From the NCBI RefSeq assembly GCF_029945925.1, contig NZ_JAQSDN010000048.1, forward strand, positions 1-64,000: 64,000 nt of DNA, given 5' to 3'. How positions within the stretch are numbered: the first letter of the stretch is position 1; every line of letters begins with the position of its first letter. The stretch is from Polaromonas sp. Its GTDB lineage: Bacteria; Pseudomonadota; Gammaproteobacteria; Burkholderiales; Burkholderiaceae_C. The position numbers and the translations under genes are program-made. Below, in pieces: positions 30,046 to 39,527 of this stretch. The notes under the pieces were generated by a model. The model had not been told where the DNA came from, searched no databases, and saw nothing but the letters and a program-made list of their open reading frames with translations.

Positions 30046-31167
30046 CTACAAGGTGTGGCTTCTGTCAACTTGGGAAAACCCCAGCGCCTGCCAGCCGCTC
30101 CAGGGCCGGGCCGGTGAATTGACGGCAAAACCGATGACCTTGAACAACTCACCCATCTCATGTTCATTGATCAGTTTCTGCACCATGACGCGCTCGGACA
30201 GCGGCACGTCTTCCATGCCGTCCAGCACGCCGCAGTTCAGCAAAAAACGCGCCTGGCTGGTGTAACCCAGCACCTGGAAACCGGCGTCCTGCCCGGCCAG
30301 CGCAATGCCGCTGAAGTTGACGTGCGCGGTGATGTCTTTCTCGCCCACGTCCTGCAGCGCATCCGCGTCGGCCAGGTGAGCGCGGTGGCACATGACCGTG
30401 CCCATGCTGCGCTGCGGGTGGTAATACTCGTGTTCAGGGAAGCCGTAATCCAGCAGAAACACCGCGCCGGCCTGCAGCCGGTCGGCCAGGGTGCGCACGA
30501 ATGCTTCGGCCTGCGGGTGGACCTCGGTCAGGTAGTCGTGGCTGCCGGCCACCTCGAGCGGCGGCCGCAGGGCCGTGGGCTGATCCGCCGGAACAAAAAC
30601 ATCGTCGTGAACGGCGACGCCGCGCTCCTGCCAGGCGCCGTCCACGCGGGCCAGCAACTGCACCGGCATGGCGTCCAGCACCTCGTTGCCGACCACCACG
30701 CCCTGCATCTGCGCCGGCAACTCGCTGACCCATTGCACGGTGTCGCCCCAGGCGGCTAGGCGCTCACGCTGGCGCGCCTGCAGGCTGCCGGAGAGATCCA
30801 CAATCGTGTAGCGCCTGACCTGCGGCCCCAGGGCTTGCAGCAGTTGCTGCGCCAGCGCGCCGGAACCCGCGCCGAACTCCCAGACCTCCGTGGTCTCCGT
30901 GGCCGCCAGGGCCTGCGCCACCTGCCGCGCCAGCGCCTGGCCAAAATGCAGGGAAAGCTCGGGCGCGGTGACAAAATCGCTGCCGCCGCCCTTCACGCCG
31001 GCGGGCATGAGGCCGAACTGGCGCGCATCGCGAGCGTAGTAGCCCAGACCGGGGGTGTACAAGGCCATGGCCATGAAACGGTCAAAACCGATCCAGCCAC
31101 CGGCAGCGGTTATGGCCCCGCGGATGTGGGCGGCCAGGGGGCTCGTTAAACTAGGGGGTATCGTCAT
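30046..31167 (-). CDS. MidA/NDUFAF7-like class I SAM methyltransferase
   Basis: 373-aa protein of the DUF185/MidA family. In mitochondria the homologue (NDUFAF7) methylates an arginine of a complex I subunit. Motifs: GGWIGFDRFMAMALYTPGLG, SDFVTAPELSLHFGQALARQ, VWEFGAGSGALAQQLL (SAM-binding) and AVFLLDYGFPEHEYY. The chosen ATG (MTIPPSLTSPLAAHI) gives a family-length protein; a longer frame covers the divergent leader. It is divergent from the SDR gene 66 bp away. Confidence 0.88.
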   Translation of the reverse strand: MTIPPSLTSPLAAHIRGAITAAGGWIGFDRFMAMALYTPGLGYYARDARQFGLMPAGVKGGGSDFVTAPELSLHFGQALARQVAQALAATETTEVWEFGAGSGALAQQLLQALGPQVRRYTIVDLSGSLQARQRERLAAWGDTVQWVSELPAQMQGVVVGNEVLDAMPVQLLARVDGAWQERGVAVHDDVFVPADQPTALRPPLEVAGSHDYLTEVHPQAEAFVRTLADRLQAGAVFLLDYGFPEHEYYHPQRSMGTVMCHRAHLADADALQDVGEKDITAHVNFSGIALAGQDAGFQVLGYTSQARFLLNCGVLDGMEDVPLSERVMVQKLINEHEMGELFKVIGFAVNSPARPWSGWQALGFSQVDRSHTL

Positions 31168-31233
31168 GGGGGAGGTGCTCACCCCCGGATTGTCGGCGAT
31201 TGCCCTGCCTCCAGCACCCCCAGCCTTCACCAC

Positions 31234-32028
31234 ATGAACCCAGCGTCCTCTGCTCCTGTTGTTCTCGTTACCGGCGCCGCCAGGCGGCTGGGCCGCGAGA
31301 TCGCGCTTGCGCTGGCAGCCGGCGGCTGGCACGTGGCCGTGCACTACCGGAGCTCGGAGGCAGATGCTACCAAAACAGTAGCTGACTGCGCCCGACTGGC
31401 GGGGGATTCAGCCTCTTTTTGCACTGATCTTGAGGATGAAGCTGCGGTCCGCGGCCTGTTGCCGCAAGTGATCAAACATTTCGGCCAGGTCGATGCGGTG
31501 GTCAACAACGCTTCCACCTTCGAACACGACAGCGCCGCCAGTTTCGGTTTTGCGTCCCTTGAAAAACACATGCGCAGCAACACCGGCGCGGCGATCATTC
31601 TGGCGCAGGCCCTGCATGCCCACGTGCTGGCGCGGCAGGCCACCGACGCCGTGACCGGGCCAACCGGCCGGTTTGCGGTGATCAACCTGCTGGACCAGAA
31701 ACTCTGGAACCTCAACCCCGATTTTTTCAGCTACACCCTGTCCAAGGCGGCGCTCGAAGCCGCCAACACCATGCTGGCCATCGCACTGGCGCCGCAGGTG
31801 CGCGTGGTGGGGGTGGCCCCCGGGCTGACACTGACCAGCCATCTGCTGAGTGACGAGAAATTCCAGGCCCTGCACAAACTCTCGCCGCTGGGCCGTTCGT
31901 CCAGCGCGGCCGATGTGGCGGCCACCGTCAGGTTCGCGCTGGAAAATGCATCCATCACCGGCACCACGCTGCTGGTGGACGGCGGACAGCACCTGCTGAA
32001 ATTCGAGCGCGATTTCTCACTGATGTGA
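31234..32028 (+). CDS. SDR oxidoreductase, possible pteridine reductase
   Basis: 264-aa short-chain dehydrogenase: cofactor motif VTGAARRLGREIALALAAGG, VDAVVNNAS, and catalytic YTLSKAALEAAN. The N-terminal HYRSS after the first strand (His-Tyr-Arg) is typical of NADPH-linked pteridine reductases such as FolM, and the next gene is folB, so a role in tetrahydrofolate or tetrahydromonapterin synthesis is plausible. A mini-repeat inserts DATKTVADCARLAGDSASFC and a few more residues in frame. Enzyme specificity is inferred from context. Confidence 0.8.
   Translation: MNPASSAPVVLVTGAARRLGREIALALAAGGWHVAVHYRSSEADATKTVADCARLAGDSASFCTDLEDEAAVRGLLPQVIKHFGQVDAVVNNASTFEHDSAASFGFASLEKHMRSNTGAAIILAQALHAHVLARQATDAVTGPTGRFAVINLLDQKLWNLNPDFFSYTLSKAALEAANTMLAIALAPQVRVVGVAPGLTLTSHLLSDEKFQALHKLSPLGRSSSAADVAATVRFALENASITGTTLLVDGGQHLLKFERDFSLM
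31366..31420 (-). repeat. mini-repeat copy inside the SDR gene
   Basis: GCTACCAAAACAGTAGC palindromic end, then a GCGCCCGACTGGCGGGGGAT spacer and TTCAGCCTCTTTTT. Reads through in frame between two secondary-structure elements. Confidence 0.75.
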
Positions 32029-32062
32029 GCGCACCCTCCTACACCGCCACCTCTTGCCCTCC

Positions 32063-32452
32063 ATGCAGACTGACTTCACCATGTTCAACACCCGTGGCAC
32101 CCAGATCCTGACGCTGACCGGACTGCGCTTCAACGCCAACCTCGGCATCCTGGAGCAGGAAAAAAGCGCGCCGCAACCGATTCAGGTAGACGCCGAACTC
32201 AACCTCGGCACGCAGCCGCTGCTGCCCAGCGACGACGACATCCACCACGTGCTGGACTACCGCAAGGTGCGCCAGATCATCATCAACGAATGCACGGCCG
32301 AACATGTGAACCTGCTGGAAAGCCTGATCGGCAAGCTGGCACACCGGCTGATGCTGCTGCCCGGCGTGCTGGGTGTGCGCGTGAAAATTGCCAAACTTGA
32401 AATTTTTGACGACTGCGAAGTGGCCATTCGTGTCGAGACCGGCCAGTGGTAA
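32063..32452 (+). CDS. folB: dihydroneopterin aldolase
   Basis: 129-aa tunnelling-fold enzyme that converts dihydroneopterin to 6-hydroxymethyl-dihydropterin in folate synthesis. Features: LTGLRFNANLGILEQEKSAP near the start, VLDYRKVRQIIINECTAEHV, and the Glu-containing NLLESLIGKLAHRLMLLPGV (family EtLae region). The ATG is preferred over a TTG three codons earlier. It lies 34 bp after the SDR gene and probably shares its transcript. The low-G+C two-gene insert follows directly. Confidence 0.93.
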   Translation: MQTDFTMFNTRGTQILTLTGLRFNANLGILEQEKSAPQPIQVDAELNLGTQPLLPSDDDIHHVLDYRKVRQIIINECTAEHVNLLESLIGKLAHRLMLLPGVLGVRVKIAKLEIFDDCEVAIRVETGQW

Positions 32453-32476
32453 GGTTTAGAAGCCTCAAGGAAAAGC

Positions 32477-33622
32477 ATGCTTATTACACGTCTTGTACTC
32501 AAAAATTGGCGTAACTTCCGCAATTTGGACGTCCCTTTTAGGGAGGTTTCTTTCTTGCTGGGGCCTAATGCCTCTGGAAAATCAAACATTCTTGACGTAT
32601 TCCGGTTTTTGCGTGATGTAAGCAAAACTCAGGGAGGTGGGCTGCAAAAGGCTGTCGCCGACCGGGGGGGCATGACCAAGCTACGCTGTCTTCACGCTCG
32701 ACAAGATCCCGGTGTGCAAATTGAGGTCACCTTGTCAGAAACGGCAGATGGCCCGCCGTTATGGCGGTACATCTTGGGTTTTGAGGGAAAGGGTTCGAAG
32801 GAAGTCCTTATTTCGAAAGAGCAGGTATGGCAAGGCGGTAAGTTACTCATTGATCGTCCTACAAAGGAGGACAAGAGCGACCCGATGCTGTTAACCCAAA
32901 CGCATTTGGAGCAAATTCAAACGAATACCAAGTTTCGCGACCTTGTCGATTTTTTCGGTGCAACCACCTACCTTCATCTGGTTCCTCAATTGTTGAAGTT
33001 CGCCGACAAAATAGGTGGACAGCGACTTGAGGACGATCCTTTTGGACAAGGTTTTCTTGAGCGCTTGGCCAAGACGCCCGAAAAGACCCGTAATGCCCGG
33101 CTAAGAAAGATCGAGATTGCATTGGCAATGGCAGTGCCGCAATTCAAGCAACTCGACTTCAAAACGGATGTTCTGGGACACCCGCACTTGCACGCGAGAT
33201 ATGAACATCATCGGCCTAATGCTGGATGGCAGTCAGAGGAACATTTTTCGGATGGCACCTTGCGGTTGCTTGGCTTGCTTTGGGCTCTGCAGGAAGGAAG
33301 TTCCTTACTTCTTCTTGAAGAGCCAGAGATTTCCTTGAATGACGCCATCGTCAAAGAGATACCTTTGATGTTGAATCGCCTCCAACGTACCAAGAAGGTC
33401 CGGCGCCAGGTGATTTTGAGCACCCACAGCGAAGCGCTGTTAAGCAACCCGGGGATTGACGGTCGAGGTGTCATATTGCTCGAAACAAGCAAAGATGGCT
33501 CCACAGCGCGGACAGTGACCTCCGAAGAGTCGCTTGATATCAAAGCGGGCCTTAGTGTGGCAGACGTAGTGCTTCCCAAGACCCGCCCAACAACTGTGAA
33601 TCAGTTGGGATTGTGGCAATGA
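32477..33622 (+). CDS. RecF/OLD-like AAA family ATPase of a two-gene insert
   Basis: 381-aa SMC-like ATPase of the AAA_15/AAA_21 kind. The N-terminus LVLKNWRNFRNLDVPF is followed by Walker A G29-PNASGKS (LLGPNASGKSNILDVFRF), a signature-like HFSDGTLRLLGLLWAL, Walker B with the double Glu E281-E282 (LLLLEEPEISLN) and a switch His in ILSTHSEALLSN (about 317). There is no C-terminal TOPRIM domain; that domain appears to be in the next gene, which starts inside this stop (ATGA). Base composition is visibly poorer in G+C than the flanks. The split ATPase plus TOPRIM arrangement resembles abortive-infection systems such as AbiL or PARIS. Confidence 0.85.
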   Translation: MLITRLVLKNWRNFRNLDVPFREVSFLLGPNASGKSNILDVFRFLRDVSKTQGGGLQKAVADRGGMTKLRCLHARQDPGVQIEVTLSETADGPPLWRYILGFEGKGSKEVLISKEQVWQGGKLLIDRPTKEDKSDPMLLTQTHLEQIQTNTKFRDLVDFFGATTYLHLVPQLLKFADKIGGQRLEDDPFGQGFLERLAKTPEKTRNARLRKIEIALAMAVPQFKQLDFKTDVLGHPHLHARYEHHRPNAGWQSEEHFSDGTLRLLGLLWALQEGSSLLLLEEPEISLNDAIVKEIPLMLNRLQRTKKVRRQVILSTHSEALLSNPGIDGRGVILLETSKDGSTARTVTSEESLDIKAGLSVADVVLPKTRPTTVNQLGLWQ

Positions 33623-34233
33623 CATTTGTTGCTCTCGCTACAGAGGATGAATTGAGCGAGGCGGTGGGCAAGCGTCTTTTGATCGATGCGGGCTATCAAC
33701 TTGAGCCAGCGCCACTGCTGCGCAGAAATGGATCCGGTTACCTGCGCTCCAAAATGGATAGTTGGTGCGAGATGGCCAAAAGAAAACCCGTTTTCTTGTT
33801 AACGGACCTCGATAGAACAGTCTGTCCAGCTGAATTACGCGCGGCTTGGATTGGCAATCGCAAACCATCTGAAAATCTTGTTATGCGTGTTGCCGTACAG
33901 GAGATTGAGGCTTGGATCTTGGCAGATCATCAGGCTTTGAAAACTATTGTCGGAAGTCGTGGATCGCTTCCAATGGACCCAGACGCGCTCCCAGACCCGA
34001 AGCAGTATTTTCTTCGACTTATCGCGAAGCAAGCGCGCCGGGAGATTCGAGAAGAATTAGTGGCAGATGCCGGAGCGATCGCAAGCCAAGGCATTGGATA
34101 CAACGCGCGACTTAGCCATTTAGTTTCCACGATATGGAGTCCCGAACGAGCGGCCCTCCGATCAAAAAGCCTACACAAAGCCCGAATTCGGCTCCGTGAA
34201 TTGGTTCACCGCATGCATCTCAATCAGGATTAA
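33619..34233 (+). CDS. TOPRIM/DUF4276-like partner protein
   Basis: 204-aa protein translationally coupled to the ATPase gene (ATGA overlap). An N-terminal acidic ALATEDELSEAVG (E9 region), a DxD at D63/D65 (VFLLTDLDR) and E95-x-E97 in VQEIEAWILAD match the acidic pattern of TOPRIM-type nucleases and the EiEAWlLaD motif I associate with DUF4276. It may provide the nuclease activity of the pair. A start at GTG six bases earlier is less likely. Stop lies 3 bp before ttcA. Base composition matches the ATPase gene, not the neighbours, so both arrived together. Confidence 0.75.
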   Translation: MTFVALATEDELSEAVGKRLLIDAGYQLEPAPLLRRNGSGYLRSKMDSWCEMAKRKPVFLLTDLDRTVCPAELRAAWIGNRKPSENLVMRVAVQEIEAWILADHQALKTIVGSRGSLPMDPDALPDPKQYFLRLIAKQARREIREELVADAGAIASQGIGYNARLSHLVSTIWSPERAALRSKSLHKARIRLRELVHRMHLNQD

Positions 34234-34236
34234 AAA

Positions 34237-35163
34237 ATGAACGCAAGATGGATTGAAGAGGATTCTGCCGTTGCAGCGACTTCCTCTGTAAAAATGAAGA
34301 TAGAACGCGAGGAACACAAGCTTGAAAAACGCCTGTGCCGCGAGGTGGGCCGCGCGATTGTCGACTTCAACATGATCGAGGAAGGCGACAAGGTCATGGT
34401 CTGCGTCTCGGGCGGCAAGGACAGCTACGCGATGCTGGACATCCTGCTCAAGCTGCAAAAACGCGCACCGATCAACTTCGAGCTGATCGCCGTCAACCTC
34501 GACCAGAAGCAACCCGGCTTTCCCGACCACATCCTGCCGCAGTACCTGGAAAAACTCGGTGTGCCTTTCCACATCGAGACGCAGGACACCTACAGCATCG
34601 TCAAGCGCGTGATCCCCGAAGGCAAGACCATGTGTTCGCTGTGTTCGCGCCTGCGCCGCGGCATTTTGTACCGGGTTGCCGAGGAGCTGGGCGCGACCAA
34701 GATCGCGCTGGGCCACCACCGCGACGACATGCTGCAGACCTTCTTTTTGAACATGTTTTTTGCTTCGCGCCTCAAGGGCATGCCGCCCAAGCTGGTCAGT
34801 GACACCGGCAAACACGTGGTGATCCGGCCCATGGCCTATGTGCCCGAGAAAGATCTCATCAAGTGGGCGCAGGTGCGCGACTTTCCGATCATCCCGTGTT
34901 CGCTGTGCGGCAGCCAGCAGAACCTGCAGCGCGTGCAGGTCGGCAACATGCTGCGCGAGTGGGACAAGAAATTCCCGGGGCGCCTGGAGAACATGTTCAC
35001 CTCGCTGCAAAACGTCGTGCCCTCGCACCTGATGGACGGCAAGCAGCACGACTTCAAGGGCATACGCAGCACCGGCATGCCGGACCCGGAAGGCGACAAG
35101 GCCTTTGACATGGAAGAGTTTTTTGAACCCGTCCGGCCCGGGCTGGGCGTCGTGACGCTGTAA
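34237..35163 (+). CDS. ttcA: tRNA 2-thiocytidine biosynthesis protein
   Basis: Iron-sulfur enzyme that thiolates C32 of tRNA using ATP. PP-loop motif [14 protein letters not shown] (about residue 58) and two CxxC pairs: C133/C136 ([12 protein letters not shown]) and C221/C224 ([12 protein letters not shown]). Length of 308 aa matches the family. The first 20 codons are unusually A+T-rich, like the upstream insert, but the N-terminal pattern still fits ttcA relatives, so the start is kept. The insert therefore ends immediately upstream of this gene. Confidence 0.94.
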
Positions 35164-35194
35164 GTTTTACAAACCATTCAGACCTGGAGGCCTT

Positions 35195-35824
35195 ATGTCG
35201 AAAGCGCTGACAGCTATCATTTTTGCAGTAACCCTGGCAGGGCTGCTGGGCGGTTGCGCGAGCACCCGCATGGTCGGCAGTGAGGTCAACAGCTTCGCCC
35301 GATGGGCGCCGACACCGCCTGCGCCGGGCAGCAGCTACCGCTTCGAGCGTTTGCCCTCGCAGCAGTCGGACATGTCCCAGGCCCGGCTGGAAGGACTGAC
35401 CCAGGCCGCGCTGGCCAAAGTGGGCCTGCAGCACAACCCGCAGGCGGCGAGCCTGAGCGTGCAGGTCAGCGCCAGCTCCCAGCCCATGCTGCGCTCGCGC
35501 TGGGACGGTGGCTACTACCCATATGGCGGTGGTCCCAACATCTTCATCGGCGGCGGCAGCGGCGTGGGTGTCAGCAATGTTGGTGTGGGTTTCGGCTTCG
35601 GTTTTCCGCTGGGCGGCATGGACACGCCGATGTACCGGCGCGAAGTCAGCATCGTGATGCGCGAGCTGCGCAGCAACGTGGCCGTGTATGAAACACGCGC
35701 GGTCAGCGAGGAACCCTGGCTGGACACCGACCCGGTGCTGTCGGCCATGCTGGACGCCGCCCTGCGCGGCTTCCCCGTGCCGCCGGCCGGGCCGCGCCGC
35801 GTTAGCGTGGAAGTACCCCGCTAG
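35195..35824 (+). CDS. DUF4136-type lipoprotein
   Basis: 209-aa predicted lipoprotein: signal peptide with lipobox LLGGC, then a body of beta strands resembling DUF4136 (FERLPSQQSDMSQARLEGLT, later SVQVSASSQ) with a Gly-rich segment (IGGGSGVGVSNVGVGFGFGF) before the last third. Envelope protein of unknown role. A GGAGG sequence precedes the ATG by 8 bp. The gene stops a few bases before a copy of the G+C-rich repeat. Confidence 0.8.
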   Translation: MSKALTAIIFAVTLAGLLGGCASTRMVGSEVNSFARWAPTPPAPGSSYRFERLPSQQSDMSQARLEGLTQAALAKVGLQHNPQAASLSVQVSASSQPMLRSRWDGGYYPYGGGPNIFIGGGSGVGVSNVGVGFGFGFPLGGMDTPMYRREVSIVMRELRSNVAVYETRAVSEEPWLDTDPVLSAMLDAALRGFPVPPAGPRRVSVEVPR

Positions 35825-35827
35825 ATG

Positions 35828-35935
35828 TGGGCCCCCACGCTCGTCACTGCGTGTACTGCGCTGCCCCCCGAGGGGGCCGCTGCGCCTGCGGCCCGGCGGA
35901 GCCGGTTCCGCGGCCCCTGCTTGAAGGGGATGCTG
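35828..35935 (+). repeat. G+C-rich palindromic intergenic repeat
   Basis: CCCCCACGCTCGTCACTGCG lead, then CGAGGGGGCCGCTGCGCCTG and CGGAGCCGGTTCCGCGGCCC. Directly follows the DUF4136 stop. A separate short motif, TTCGTCCTGAGCCTGTCGAA, sits at about 35963-35982 and is also repetitive in this bacterial group, from memory. Confidence 0.85.
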
Positions 35936-36008
35936 TCCCAACGTTTGGGCACTGGTTTTCCGTTCGTCCTGAGCCTGTCGAAGGATGCTCCGAAAGGGGC
36001 GCTGCGCG

Positions 36009-37802: not shown

Positions 37803-39527
37803 ATGACCCCCAGCCAGATCATCGTCCTCGCCACCCCCGTCTTCTTTCTCCTGATTGCGATCGAATTCGCCTGGGGTTACGCGAAGGGCCGCAACACCTA
37901 CCGCCTGAACGACGCGATCAACAGCATCAGCCTGGGCATGCTGAGCCAGATCAGCGCGGTGTTCACCCGGCTGTTTCGCGTCGGCATCTACACCGCCATC
38001 TATTCGTCGGTCGCGCTGTTCCCCGACGAAGCCTTCTGGACCACCTGGTATGGCTGGCTGATCGCCCTGGTCTTTTACGACTTCTGCTACTACTGGCTGC
38101 ACCGCGCCGGCCATGAAAGCGCGGTCTTCTGGGCCGCGCATGTGGTGCACCACCAGAGCCAGGACTACAACCTCTCGACCGCGCTGCGCCAGACCAGCAG
38201 CGGCGCCCTGCTCGGCTGGATTTTCTACGTGCCGATGGCGATTGCCGGCGTGCCGCCGCTGGTCTTCGGCGTGGTGGTGCTGATCGACCTGCTCTACCAG
38301 TTCTGGGTGCACACCGAACACGTGCCCAAGCTCGGCTGGTTCGACCGCTGGTTCTGCTCGCCGTCCAACCACCGCGTGCACCACGCGGTCAACGACCACT
38401 ACCTCGACAGAAACTACGGCGGCATCCTGATCGTCTGGGACCGGCTCTTCGGCAGCTTCCGCGAGGAGGACGAAAAATGCATCTACGGCACACGCAGCCC
38501 GCTCAACAGCTGGGACCCGCTGTGGTCCAACGCCGAGGTCTACTGGGCCCTGGCCAAAGACGCCTGGCACGCCAGCAACTGGGGCGACAAGCTCCGCATC
38601 TGGTTCAAGCCGCCCGGTTGGCGCCCGGCCGATGTGGCCGCGCGTTTTCCGCGGCAGGCCTTTGACATCACGCGGCTGCAGCGTTACCACCCACCCATGA
38701 CCCGCGCCCTGATGTGGTTCGGCGCCGTGCAGTTTGTCGTGCTGTTGCAGGGCGTCGCCCTGTTCCTCTGGTACGCCGACAACCTGCCGGCCTTGCAGTC
38801 GGCCGTCTGGCTGGGGGTACTGGCCATCGGGCTCTGGGCCGTGGGTGCCGCGCTGCAGGGCCGCCTGACGATGACCGAGGTGCTGCTGATCGAGGCCGCG
38901 GCGCTGGCAACGGCGACCAGCGCCCTGGGGCTGGTGGAGCTGCACCGCGTGTTCAAGCCGCTGGCGCTTGGTTTTGCTCTTGTTTTTGTAGCTGCTCGCG
39001 CACACCCCATAAGGGCTGAGAGCCGATTTGATCTGATTTTGGGGGCAGGTCTGGTCTTTTCCCTCGCCGGCGATGTTCTCCTGATGTTTCCCGGCTTCTT
39101 CATCCCCGGCCTGCTGTCTTTCCTGGTCGCCCACCTGTTCTACATTGCCCTGTTCAAGCAGGGCCAGGCCTGGTTCCCCAGCCGGCGCGCGCTGGCCGCC
39201 ACCTTGGGCGTCGGTGCGCTGATGTACGCCTTCCTGTTTGCCGGGCTCAACCCGGTGCTGCGTTTTGCGGTGGCCGCCTACGTGATCGTGATTGCATTGA
39301 TGGCCGCGCAGGCCATCGGCCGGGCCACGGTGCTGCGTGACAAGGCTTCACTGGGCGTGGCCGTCGGTGCCGGCTTTTTCATGCTGAGCGACGCGCTGCT
39401 GGCCACCAACAAGTTCGCCCAGCCCCTGCCCATGGCACAGCTGTGGGTGCTGGGAACCTACTATCTCGCGCAAGTCCTGATCGTGCACAACGCGCGGCCT
39501 GCCACTGCAGGGCAGCGGGCGGGCTGA
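37803..39527 (+). CDS. fusion of sterol-desaturase/AGMO-like and YhhN domains
   Basis: 574-aa membrane protein. The N-terminal domain is a fatty-acid-hydroxylase/sterol-desaturase with the eight-His di-iron pattern: H100-RAG-H104, H113-VV-H116-H117 and H190-RV-H193-H194 (LHRAGHESAVFWAAHVVHHQ; NHRVHHAVNDHYLDRNYGG), closest to the alkylglycerol monooxygenase (TMEM195) type. The C-terminal 200 residues are a multi-helix YhhN/TMEM86 domain (LVFSLAGDVLLMFPGF, FMLSDALLATNKF), a family that includes lysoplasmalogenase. Both domains can act on ether-linked lipids, so an ether-lipid cleavage protein is inferred. A mini-repeat encodes the loop at the YhhN start. Confidence 0.85.
   Translation: MTPSQIIVLATPVFFLLIAIEFAWGYAKGRNTYRLNDAINSISLGMLSQISAVFTRLFRVGIYTAIYSSVALFPDEAFWTTWYGWLIALVFYDFCYYWLHRAGHESAVFWAAHVVHHQSQDYNLSTALRQTSSGALLGWIFYVPMAIAGVPPLVFGVVVLIDLLYQFWVHTEHVPKLGWFDRWFCSPSNHRVHHAVNDHYLDRNYGGILIVWDRLFGSFREEDEKCIYGTRSPLNSWDPLWSNAEVYWALAKDAWHASNWGDKLRIWFKPPGWRPADVAARFPRQAFDITRLQRYHPPMTRALMWFGAVQFVVLLQGVALFLWYADNLPALQSAVWLGVLAIGLWAVGAALQGRLTMTEVLLIEAAALATATSALGLVELHRVFKPLALGFALVFVAARAHPIRAESRFDLILGAGLVFSLAGDVLLMFPGFFIPGLLSFLVAHLFYIALFKQGQAWFPSRRALAATLGVGALMYAFLFAGLNPVLRFAVAAYVIVIALMAAQAIGRATVLRDKASLGVAVGAGFFMLSDALLATNKFAQPLPMAQLWVLGTYYLAQVLIVHNARPATAGQRAG
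38980..39034 (-). repeat. mini-repeat copy inside the AGMO-YhhN gene
   Basis: TTGTTTTTGTAGCTGCTCGC end, then ATAAGGGCTGAGAGCCGATT. In frame; it codes for a short loop (VAARAHPIRAESRFDL) between helices of the YhhN domain. Confidence 0.75.

Follow-up and report, generated by a model that had tools for sequence, protein, structure and literature searches.

Gene content of the folB-ttcA interval

Between folB and ttcA on a 64,000-nucleotide stretch of a Polaromonas sp. genome (NCBI RefSeq assembly GCF_029945925.1, contig NZ_JAQSDN010000048.1, positions 1 to 64,000, forward strand; hereafter the window) lie two genes, for a predicted ABC ATPase (P0001) and a smaller TOPRIM-like protein (P0002). 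The host genome comprises 4.78 Mb in 71 contigs. By sequence comparison, the pair is a member of the catalogued candidate family HEC-01: PADLOC identifies the ATPase as HEC-01A (E 1.1e-149) and its partner as HEC-01B (E 4.2e-56), near full length and adjacent, and the gene order is that of the family.

The four genes are co-directional: folB and the ATPase gene are 24 bp apart, the two genes of the pair overlap by 4 bp, and ttcA follows after another 3 bp (Table 1). An initial annotation, made from the DNA letters alone, had placed both open reading frames (ORFs) and their ATGA overlap here, and the sequence bears it out. A mechanical ORF list puts the start of the TOPRIM gene at GTG 33613 (206 aa); the ATG start gives 204 aa. 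The annotation had also remarked on a composition unlike that of either neighbour, and this was confirmed: the G+C content at third codon positions is 0.54 in the ATPase gene and 0.48 in the TOPRIM gene, versus 0.80 in folB and 0.82 in ttcA. Over positions 32451-34294 the G+C content is 0.503, against a window mean of 0.645 (standard deviation 0.034; 1844-base sliding windows, step 100), and all such sliding windows below 0.55 start within 31701-33201 and thus overlap the foreign segment described below.

Table 1. Features of the folB-ttcA interval (window coordinates)
Feature	Position	Strand	Basis or remark
HEC-01A-type ABC ATPase (AAA_21), P0001, presumed sensor/repressor, 381 aa	32477..33622	+	ATG 32477 to TGA 33622
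HEC-01B-type DUF4276-like TOPRIM protein, P0002, presumed two-metal nuclease effector, 204 aa	33619..34233	+	ATG 33619 to TAA 34233
ATGA stop-start overlap (translational coupling)	33619..33622	+	sequence; tight gap in relatives
Horizontally acquired segment (best reading)	32451..34294	+	homology break, bin identity, G+C
Imported 5' end of ttcA and 3 bp gap (best reading)	34234..34294	+	nearer L086 than L021/L022
folB, left neighbour, native lineage	32054..32452	+	synonymous divergence; ORF as listed
ttcA, right neighbour, native from ~34295	34237..35163	+	synonymous divergence

Conserved residues and predicted structure

The Walker A, Walker B and switch histidine motifs of the ATPase had been described as complete, and they hardly vary among relatives. 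In an alignment of P0001 with 53 of the 79 loci holding the ATPase, picked for spread, G29, N31, G34, K35 and S36 (Walker A), S258-D-G-T (signature) and E281-E282-P-E (Walker B) are invariant in 54/54 sequences, and the switch residue H317 is kept in 53. The modelled ATPase has a predicted AriA-like fold.

The acidic pattern first noticed in the 204-aa protein (E9, D63-x-D65, E95-x-E97) is, together with K128, invariant in all 71 sequences of an alignment of P0002 with 70 of 80 loci. Ten loci were left out of this alignment: L086 and L093 for an internal stop in the stretch, L122, L125, L132, L109 and L143 because they were truncated or of odd length, and L089, L100 and L114 as near-duplicates. 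Because residues 95-104 lie in the pattern with which relatives were searched, the conservation of E95 and E97 is partly selected; E9, D63, D65 and K128 lie outside that pattern, and in 14 sequences found without it E9, D63, E97 and K128 are invariant and position 65 is D or E.

These residues parallel most of the active site of a Class 2 OLD nuclease. In that enzyme, according to PMC6755086, E400, D455 and D457 belong to metal A and E404, T506 and E508 to metal B, with K562 in addition. Matched by order and by both x+2 spacings, not by superposition, E9, D63-x-D65, E95-x-E97 and K128 correspond to E400, D455-x-D457, T506-x-E508 and K562. P0002 carries what looks like a two-metal nuclease site.

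The structural model of P0002 (predicted local distance difference test, pLDDT, 95.3) contains the TOPRIM core that the initial annotation had anticipated. In the VIA structure ranking, OLD TOPRIM regions hold ranks 1-3 and 5, chain D of the AriA-AriB complex holds rank 6, and GajA and retron-Eco2 hold ranks 11-12; Foldseek gave template modelling (TM) scores of 0.51/0.52 to 6nk8. E9 follows the strand at 2-8 and D63-x-D65 ends the strand at 58-63, as is the placement of the TOPRIM glutamate and DxD. The annotation had also named a DUF4276 fold: 59 of the 71 aligned sequences match DUF4276 (PF14103) at E 0.001, and P0002 itself scores 25.1 bits, under the gathering cut-off of 30.2. A sequence search of the PDB with P0002 found no match to E 1, and a repeat gave one at E 1.4, taken as chance. 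Elsewhere in the same genome there is an OLD-like TOPRIM match, L183 (G000:C68:1516-1710; PF20469, 52.8 bits), in a 534-residue open frame.

Distribution and pairing in other genomes

Relatives of the pair are sporadic. Counting its own genome each time, the pair was found in 4 of 87 genus genomes (P0002, E 1e-10), P0002 relatives in 17 of 299 family genomes (E 1e-5) and P0001 in 8 of 398 phylum genomes (E 1e-60); an earlier draw of 61 genus genomes had P0001 in one at E 1e-20. A scan of genome contigs found 362 loci, of which the best 80 were taken; with L168 these make up the 81 loci counted below. The best 80 come from Pseudomonadota, Planctomycetes, Acidobacteria, Synergistetes, Bacteroidetes, an ANME archaeon and others, many of them metagenome bins.

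The ATPase gene lies directly 5' of the TOPRIM gene in 79 of the 81 loci, with a gap of -7 to +8 nt (one ATPase is cut by a contig end), and the two exceptions, L109 and L143, sit 62 and 115 bases from a contig end. Pairing was likewise seen in 15 of 16 distinct loci of a first family set, several genomes of which recur in the later scan; the sixteenth locus is at a contig start. The pair recurs as a unit in other genomes, and is scattered across the family rather than fixed in it. In comparison with L086, the ratio of nonsynonymous to synonymous divergence (dN/dS) is 0.04 for the ATPase gene and 0.115 for the TOPRIM gene, which indicates purifying selection. On a tree of 79 ATPase rows, built by a quick method that left 28 of the 75 inner branches open, 24 changes are needed to place the class labels; the minimum is 13 and the shuffled mean 39.6. 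Because the value falls between these two, both inheritance within groups and transfer between groups are likely.

We also searched for relatives on mobile elements. P0002 had no tblastn match among 72,556 plasmid records (E 1e-5) or in phage records. The viral contigs gave no match to the single P0002 sequence, but a profile search found three relatives there (L192, L193 and L194), each with both genes. In L192 (4841-6582) the pair lies behind tail, endolysin and DNA methyltransferase genes, and in L193 (4838-6603) near both terminase genes; either may be a prophage or a free phage. A comparison with DUF4435 yielded only 3 loci.

Arrival of the pair at the folB-ttcA site

To place the insert, the site was compared with 29 other genus loci and later with 20 further ones; at the time of the first comparison another 25 genomes had a ttcA match but no locus to compare. 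Homology to the nearest empty-site relatives ends at 32450-32452, at the folB stop, and restarts at 34295, inside ttcA. The low-G+C insert reported initially is indeed a foreign segment, but its right end is at ~34294, within ttcA, and not at 34233. It displaces ~105 bp of the empty site (as in L021), namely the intergenic gap and the first ~19 codons of ttcA. In 80-base bins, 34237-34316 has an identity of only 0.60/0.59 to L021/L022, where 18 other flank bins have 0.91-1.00; the same bin is 0.85 identical to L086, which, like L087, carries the pair at the same folB-ttcA site. Since the flanks follow L021/L022 and this bin follows L086, the import appears to have exchanged the first codons of ttcA as well. 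As it stands, ttcA begins with donor-like sequence (34237-34294), 3 bp behind the TOPRIM gene.

Synonymous divergence (dS) points the same way. To L086 it is 0.33 for the ATPase gene and 0.23 for the TOPRIM gene, and for six flanking genes it is 0.46 (folB), 0.57 (ttcA), 0.59 (SDR), 0.61, 0.66 and 0.69, some of these values being over 44-61 codons only and the gene at 0.61 having a stop at one end of its frame. The same flanks are only 0.07-0.20 from the sister genomes L021/L022, which are without the pair (folB, 123 codons: 0.07 to L021 versus 0.46 to L086; ttcA, 288 codons: 0.147 versus 0.573). Because the dS of the pair to L086 is about half that of the flanking genes, the best reading is that homologous recombination across shared flanks brought the pair in once the species had separated. 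A vertically inherited pair, lost from the sister lineages, was considered and is disfavoured, as the pair lies below all six flanks; the differing base composition of the insert could disturb this contrast. Compared with L087, raw synonymous differences are 0.83 and 0.74 in the pair, near saturation, and 0.32-0.49 in the flanks, and the L087 copy would therefore be older or have arrived separately.

Apart from the pair, the insert is too short to contain an integrase gene. A repeat search found one 17-nt direct and one 19-nt inverted pair, neither of them at the ends of the insert. Rfam at gathering thresholds had no match in 31000-36000. Read in this manner, the locus offers a clear case from nature of a defence-type cassette that, by itself and without an integrase, moved between species and swapped the start of a housekeeping gene. 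The betaproteobacterial loci L099, L100, L108 and L143 share a different site, where the pair lies next to what by eye is an hrpA-type helicase gene; this suggests a similar spread by recombination.

Two further ideas about the site were rejected. The first was that folB-ttcA is a defence hotspot. Among the 29 loci, L028 has a different insert and the rest have up to ~200 bp at the site, and among the 20 further loci L061 (~2.7 kb) and L064 (~0.9 kb) hold other inserts; by eye these carry a membrane ORF (L028), a long membrane/GGDEF-like ORF (L061) and a peptidase-like ORF (L064). As these inserts are unrelated, the gap looks merely permissive. The second was a functional link to ttcA, given its part in tRNA modification and the precedent of a tRNase. 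By eye, just two of the 81 loci, L086 and L087, have ttcA as the next gene, and its Pfam family was matched by 2 of 100 neighbour genes, so that the adjacency looks like place, not function. In L059, L065, L067, L068 and L069, five of the 20 further loci, the site is occupied by a different folB-like gene, only 26-30% identical to folB of the window. Farther along the window, 38500-39500 has a strong negative AT skew (to -0.43) inside the ORF at 37803-39527.

Neighbouring genes of the relatives

We examined the first neighbours of the pair (170-1500 aa, without three near-duplicates), 100 of 104 of which were scanned; four long proteins, one each from L094, L099, L108 and L163, were left out. 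A distant control consisted of 104 of 115 fifth and sixth neighbours, scanned with PADLOC only. Both sets came from a simple ORF caller and include spurious ORFs, and the matches given are those of the first 25 families, of 103 (PADLOC, neighbours), 60 (PADLOC, control) and 135 (Pfam, neighbours).

Among the neighbours, PADLOC gave five matches to type III methyltransferase models and one each to the HmaA, HmaB, REase_III, type I specificity and REase_I models, and Pfam gave seven N6_N4_Mtase and four ResIII matches. No MTase_III is among the best 25 of the 60 families matched in the distant control, in which other defence models are present. Scanned singly, the gene before the pair encodes a DNA methylase in six loci (L096, L122, L153, L156, L158 and L160), a helicase in L135 (SNF2-type) and L149 (DEAD), and a type I protein in L128 (restriction, EcoEI_R-type) and L142 (specificity). 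Behind the pair, L096 and L160 have a ResIII gene, L135 a DUF1156 gene and L158 a UvrD-like one; the gene at this place in L153 and L156 shows 47-48% identity to its counterpart in L160, without a ResIII match at E 1e-8. In all, 9 of the 81 loci have a clear restriction- or Hma-type neighbour, L149 not being counted. Loci L076 and L079 of the family set have the same order by similarity.

Two of these loci bear additional observations. In L096 (4781-13698), from Pseudomonas, the pair lies between methylase and type III restriction genes, with an OLD-like ATPase gene downstream by eye. In L153 (3347-7267) the protein encoded behind the pair shares 48% identity, across 947 residues, with the restriction-type protein of L160, and it ends in an extra DUF900 alpha/beta hydrolase region.

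Proposed function and alternatives

We consider it likely that the pair is a two-gene HEC-01 defence-type module, composed of a PARIS/AbiL-like sensor ATPase and a TOPRIM nuclease effector. The defence-type interpretation with which the initial annotation began is supported by the HEC-01 match, the predicted TOPRIM fold, the pairing and the sporadic spread. Sensor and effector roles are proposed because the parts are those of PARIS and of AAA-TOPRIM_OLD pairs, the order is antitoxin-first, and a minority of relatives have a restriction context. In such a module, the ATPase, of the PtuA/AriA/OLD kind, would as an oligomer bind the TOPRIM protein and keep it from acting. During infection a cue (altered DNA, or a phage product such as, perhaps, a restriction blocker) would alter the ATPase, which would free or activate the nuclease; this in turn would cut nucleic acid, whether RNA or DNA, and halt the infected cell, as in the case of AriA/AriB of PARIS. 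Gene order, coupling, conserved residues, selection, spread, import, the predicted folds and the context of some relatives are computed here; binding of the two proteins, toxicity of the second, cutting and phage defence are what we infer.

A number of observations weigh against this interpretation. By eye, most relatives are solitary between housekeeping genes, outside defence islands. The window itself, as had been said at the outset, is otherwise a housekeeping row: among its 53 scanned ORFs there is no other clear defence gene, and the single matches to the mad3 and CARF_LolE models are probably a transporter ATPase and a LolE-like protein. Defence models are matched among the 104 distant control genes too (two HEC-01A-type proteins, a type IIG enzyme and HmaC among others), and the restriction-gene link, in raw counts, therefore concerns a minority only. 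Proximity to known defence genes, which the initial annotation had proposed to look for in other genomes, is seen in the nine loci, and most copies are by eye solitary. With regard to the nuclease site, S13 stands at the place of the OLD metal-B glutamate E404, and in the distant relatives L017 and L018 (identity 26 and 22%) position 65 is E and position 95 is M. Foldseek found no PDB match to the TOPRIM protein at E <0.001, its two top rows being an unrelated PTS protein, and hhalign against seven OLD TOPRIM stretches reached a probability of only 25% (E 8e-4; two controls 0.1%), with the DxD aligned and E9 set four residues off. Finally, the only AAA-neutralised pair that was screened against coliphages in PMC10440598 gave no protection.

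We regard as possible, though doubtful, a more specific version, in which HEC-01 is a self-standing guard of restriction: found in methylase-restriction operons and phage genomes and moving alone between species, through recombination at ordinary housekeeping genes, it would sense anti-restriction or another cue, and its TOPRIM enzyme would then cut tRNA or DNA. PARIS-like OLD/TOPRIM modules have been proposed as BREX backup effectors against anti-restriction (PMC12839542).

Of the other explanations, that of an addiction module fares best, although we consider it unlikely. Here the ATPase would neutralise a TOPRIM toxin and the pair would persist by post-segregational effects, not by phage defence. 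The antitoxin-first order and the tight coupling in 79/79 loci would suit such a module, and PMC10440598 documents AAA antitoxin/TOPRIM_OLD toxin pairs by neutralisation assays, while calling a defence role speculation. The 72,556 plasmid records, where such modules would be expected, gave no P0002 relative by tblastn at E 1e-5, and some relatives beside restriction genes or in viral contigs point to conflict. Many toxin-antitoxin modules abort infection, and the addiction and defence readings therefore overlap.

Somewhat less probable still is an accessory to restriction or repair, in which the TOPRIM nuclease, loaded on DNA by the ATPase, would degrade cut or damaged molecules in aid of methylase/helicase systems; most copies are by eye without an adjacent restriction gene, and so the pair should work by itself. 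An ordinary cellular pair with a housekeeping role that is often lost is very improbable: the usual position among housekeeping genes by eye, the purifying selection and the clustering of class labels relative to the shuffled tree would fit it, but it is at odds with the sporadic distribution, the import suggested by dS, the copies in viral contigs and the excess of class changes over the least possible number. The defence-type module remains our preferred interpretation, and the many copies that stand alone between housekeeping genes explain how searches built on defence islands can miss systems of this kind.

Comparison with known systems

The initial annotation had suggested a pair related to AbiL and PARIS, or an undescribed one. 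The relation in kind, an ATPase with a TOPRIM partner, holds, but the pair is already catalogued: HEC-01 is a candidate of PADLOC-DB 2.0, with a catalogue entry only. HEC stands for Hma-embedded candidate; according to PMC12988326, antiviral activity was shown in a preprint for several HECs, with HEC-06 named, and a table in PMC10855318 gives the HEC mechanism as unknown. Among the titles and passages found there was no mechanistic paper on DUF4276 or HEC-01, nor any mention of a test of HEC-01 itself. Some relatives have methylase/helicase genes next to them, whereas the window copy is solitary among housekeeping genes. Added here are the structural match to TOPRIM proteins, an OLD-type site that is largely complete, and the history of recombination at the locus; the first two may stand in the HEC preprint. 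They offer a concrete candidate mechanism for a family in a widely used defence catalogue: an ABC ATPase would restrain a two-metal TOPRIM nuclease whose site residues can be named. If HEC-01 is the guard of restriction described above, it would be a compact, widespread split OLD/TOPRIM system that extends from bacterial genomes to that of an ANME archaeon and differs in sequence from both PARIS and AbiL.

In PARIS, the AriA hexamer keeps AriB inactive until a phage protein releases AriB, which dimerises and cuts tRNA(Lys) (PMC12409363). The window ATPase shares the AriA-like fold, as predicted; its matches to AriA models are taken as unspecific because the lengths of these models equal those of Pfam AAA_21 and AAA_15. 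The TOPRIM protein, at 204 aa versus 305 residues in the matched AriB chain, matches no AriB model, and no AbiLii model, among its 15 PADLOC families to E 1. AbiL is likewise an ATPase and a TOPRIM-type effector in two genes, and the ATPase matches AbiLi at 1.6e-19. Unlike OLD and Gabija GajA, the window pair has its ATPase and TOPRIM in two ORFs with no fusion, and it is without the adjacent helicase of Gabija, its neighbours being folB and ttcA; PMC10568477 reviews how OLD proteins are classed and the still unsettled position of PARIS in that scheme. In Septu and the retrons the partner PtuB is an HNH nuclease (PMC10440598), whereas the partner in the window is TOPRIM-like, as judged from its DUF4276/HEC-01B similarity and the TOPRIM structures that it resembles.
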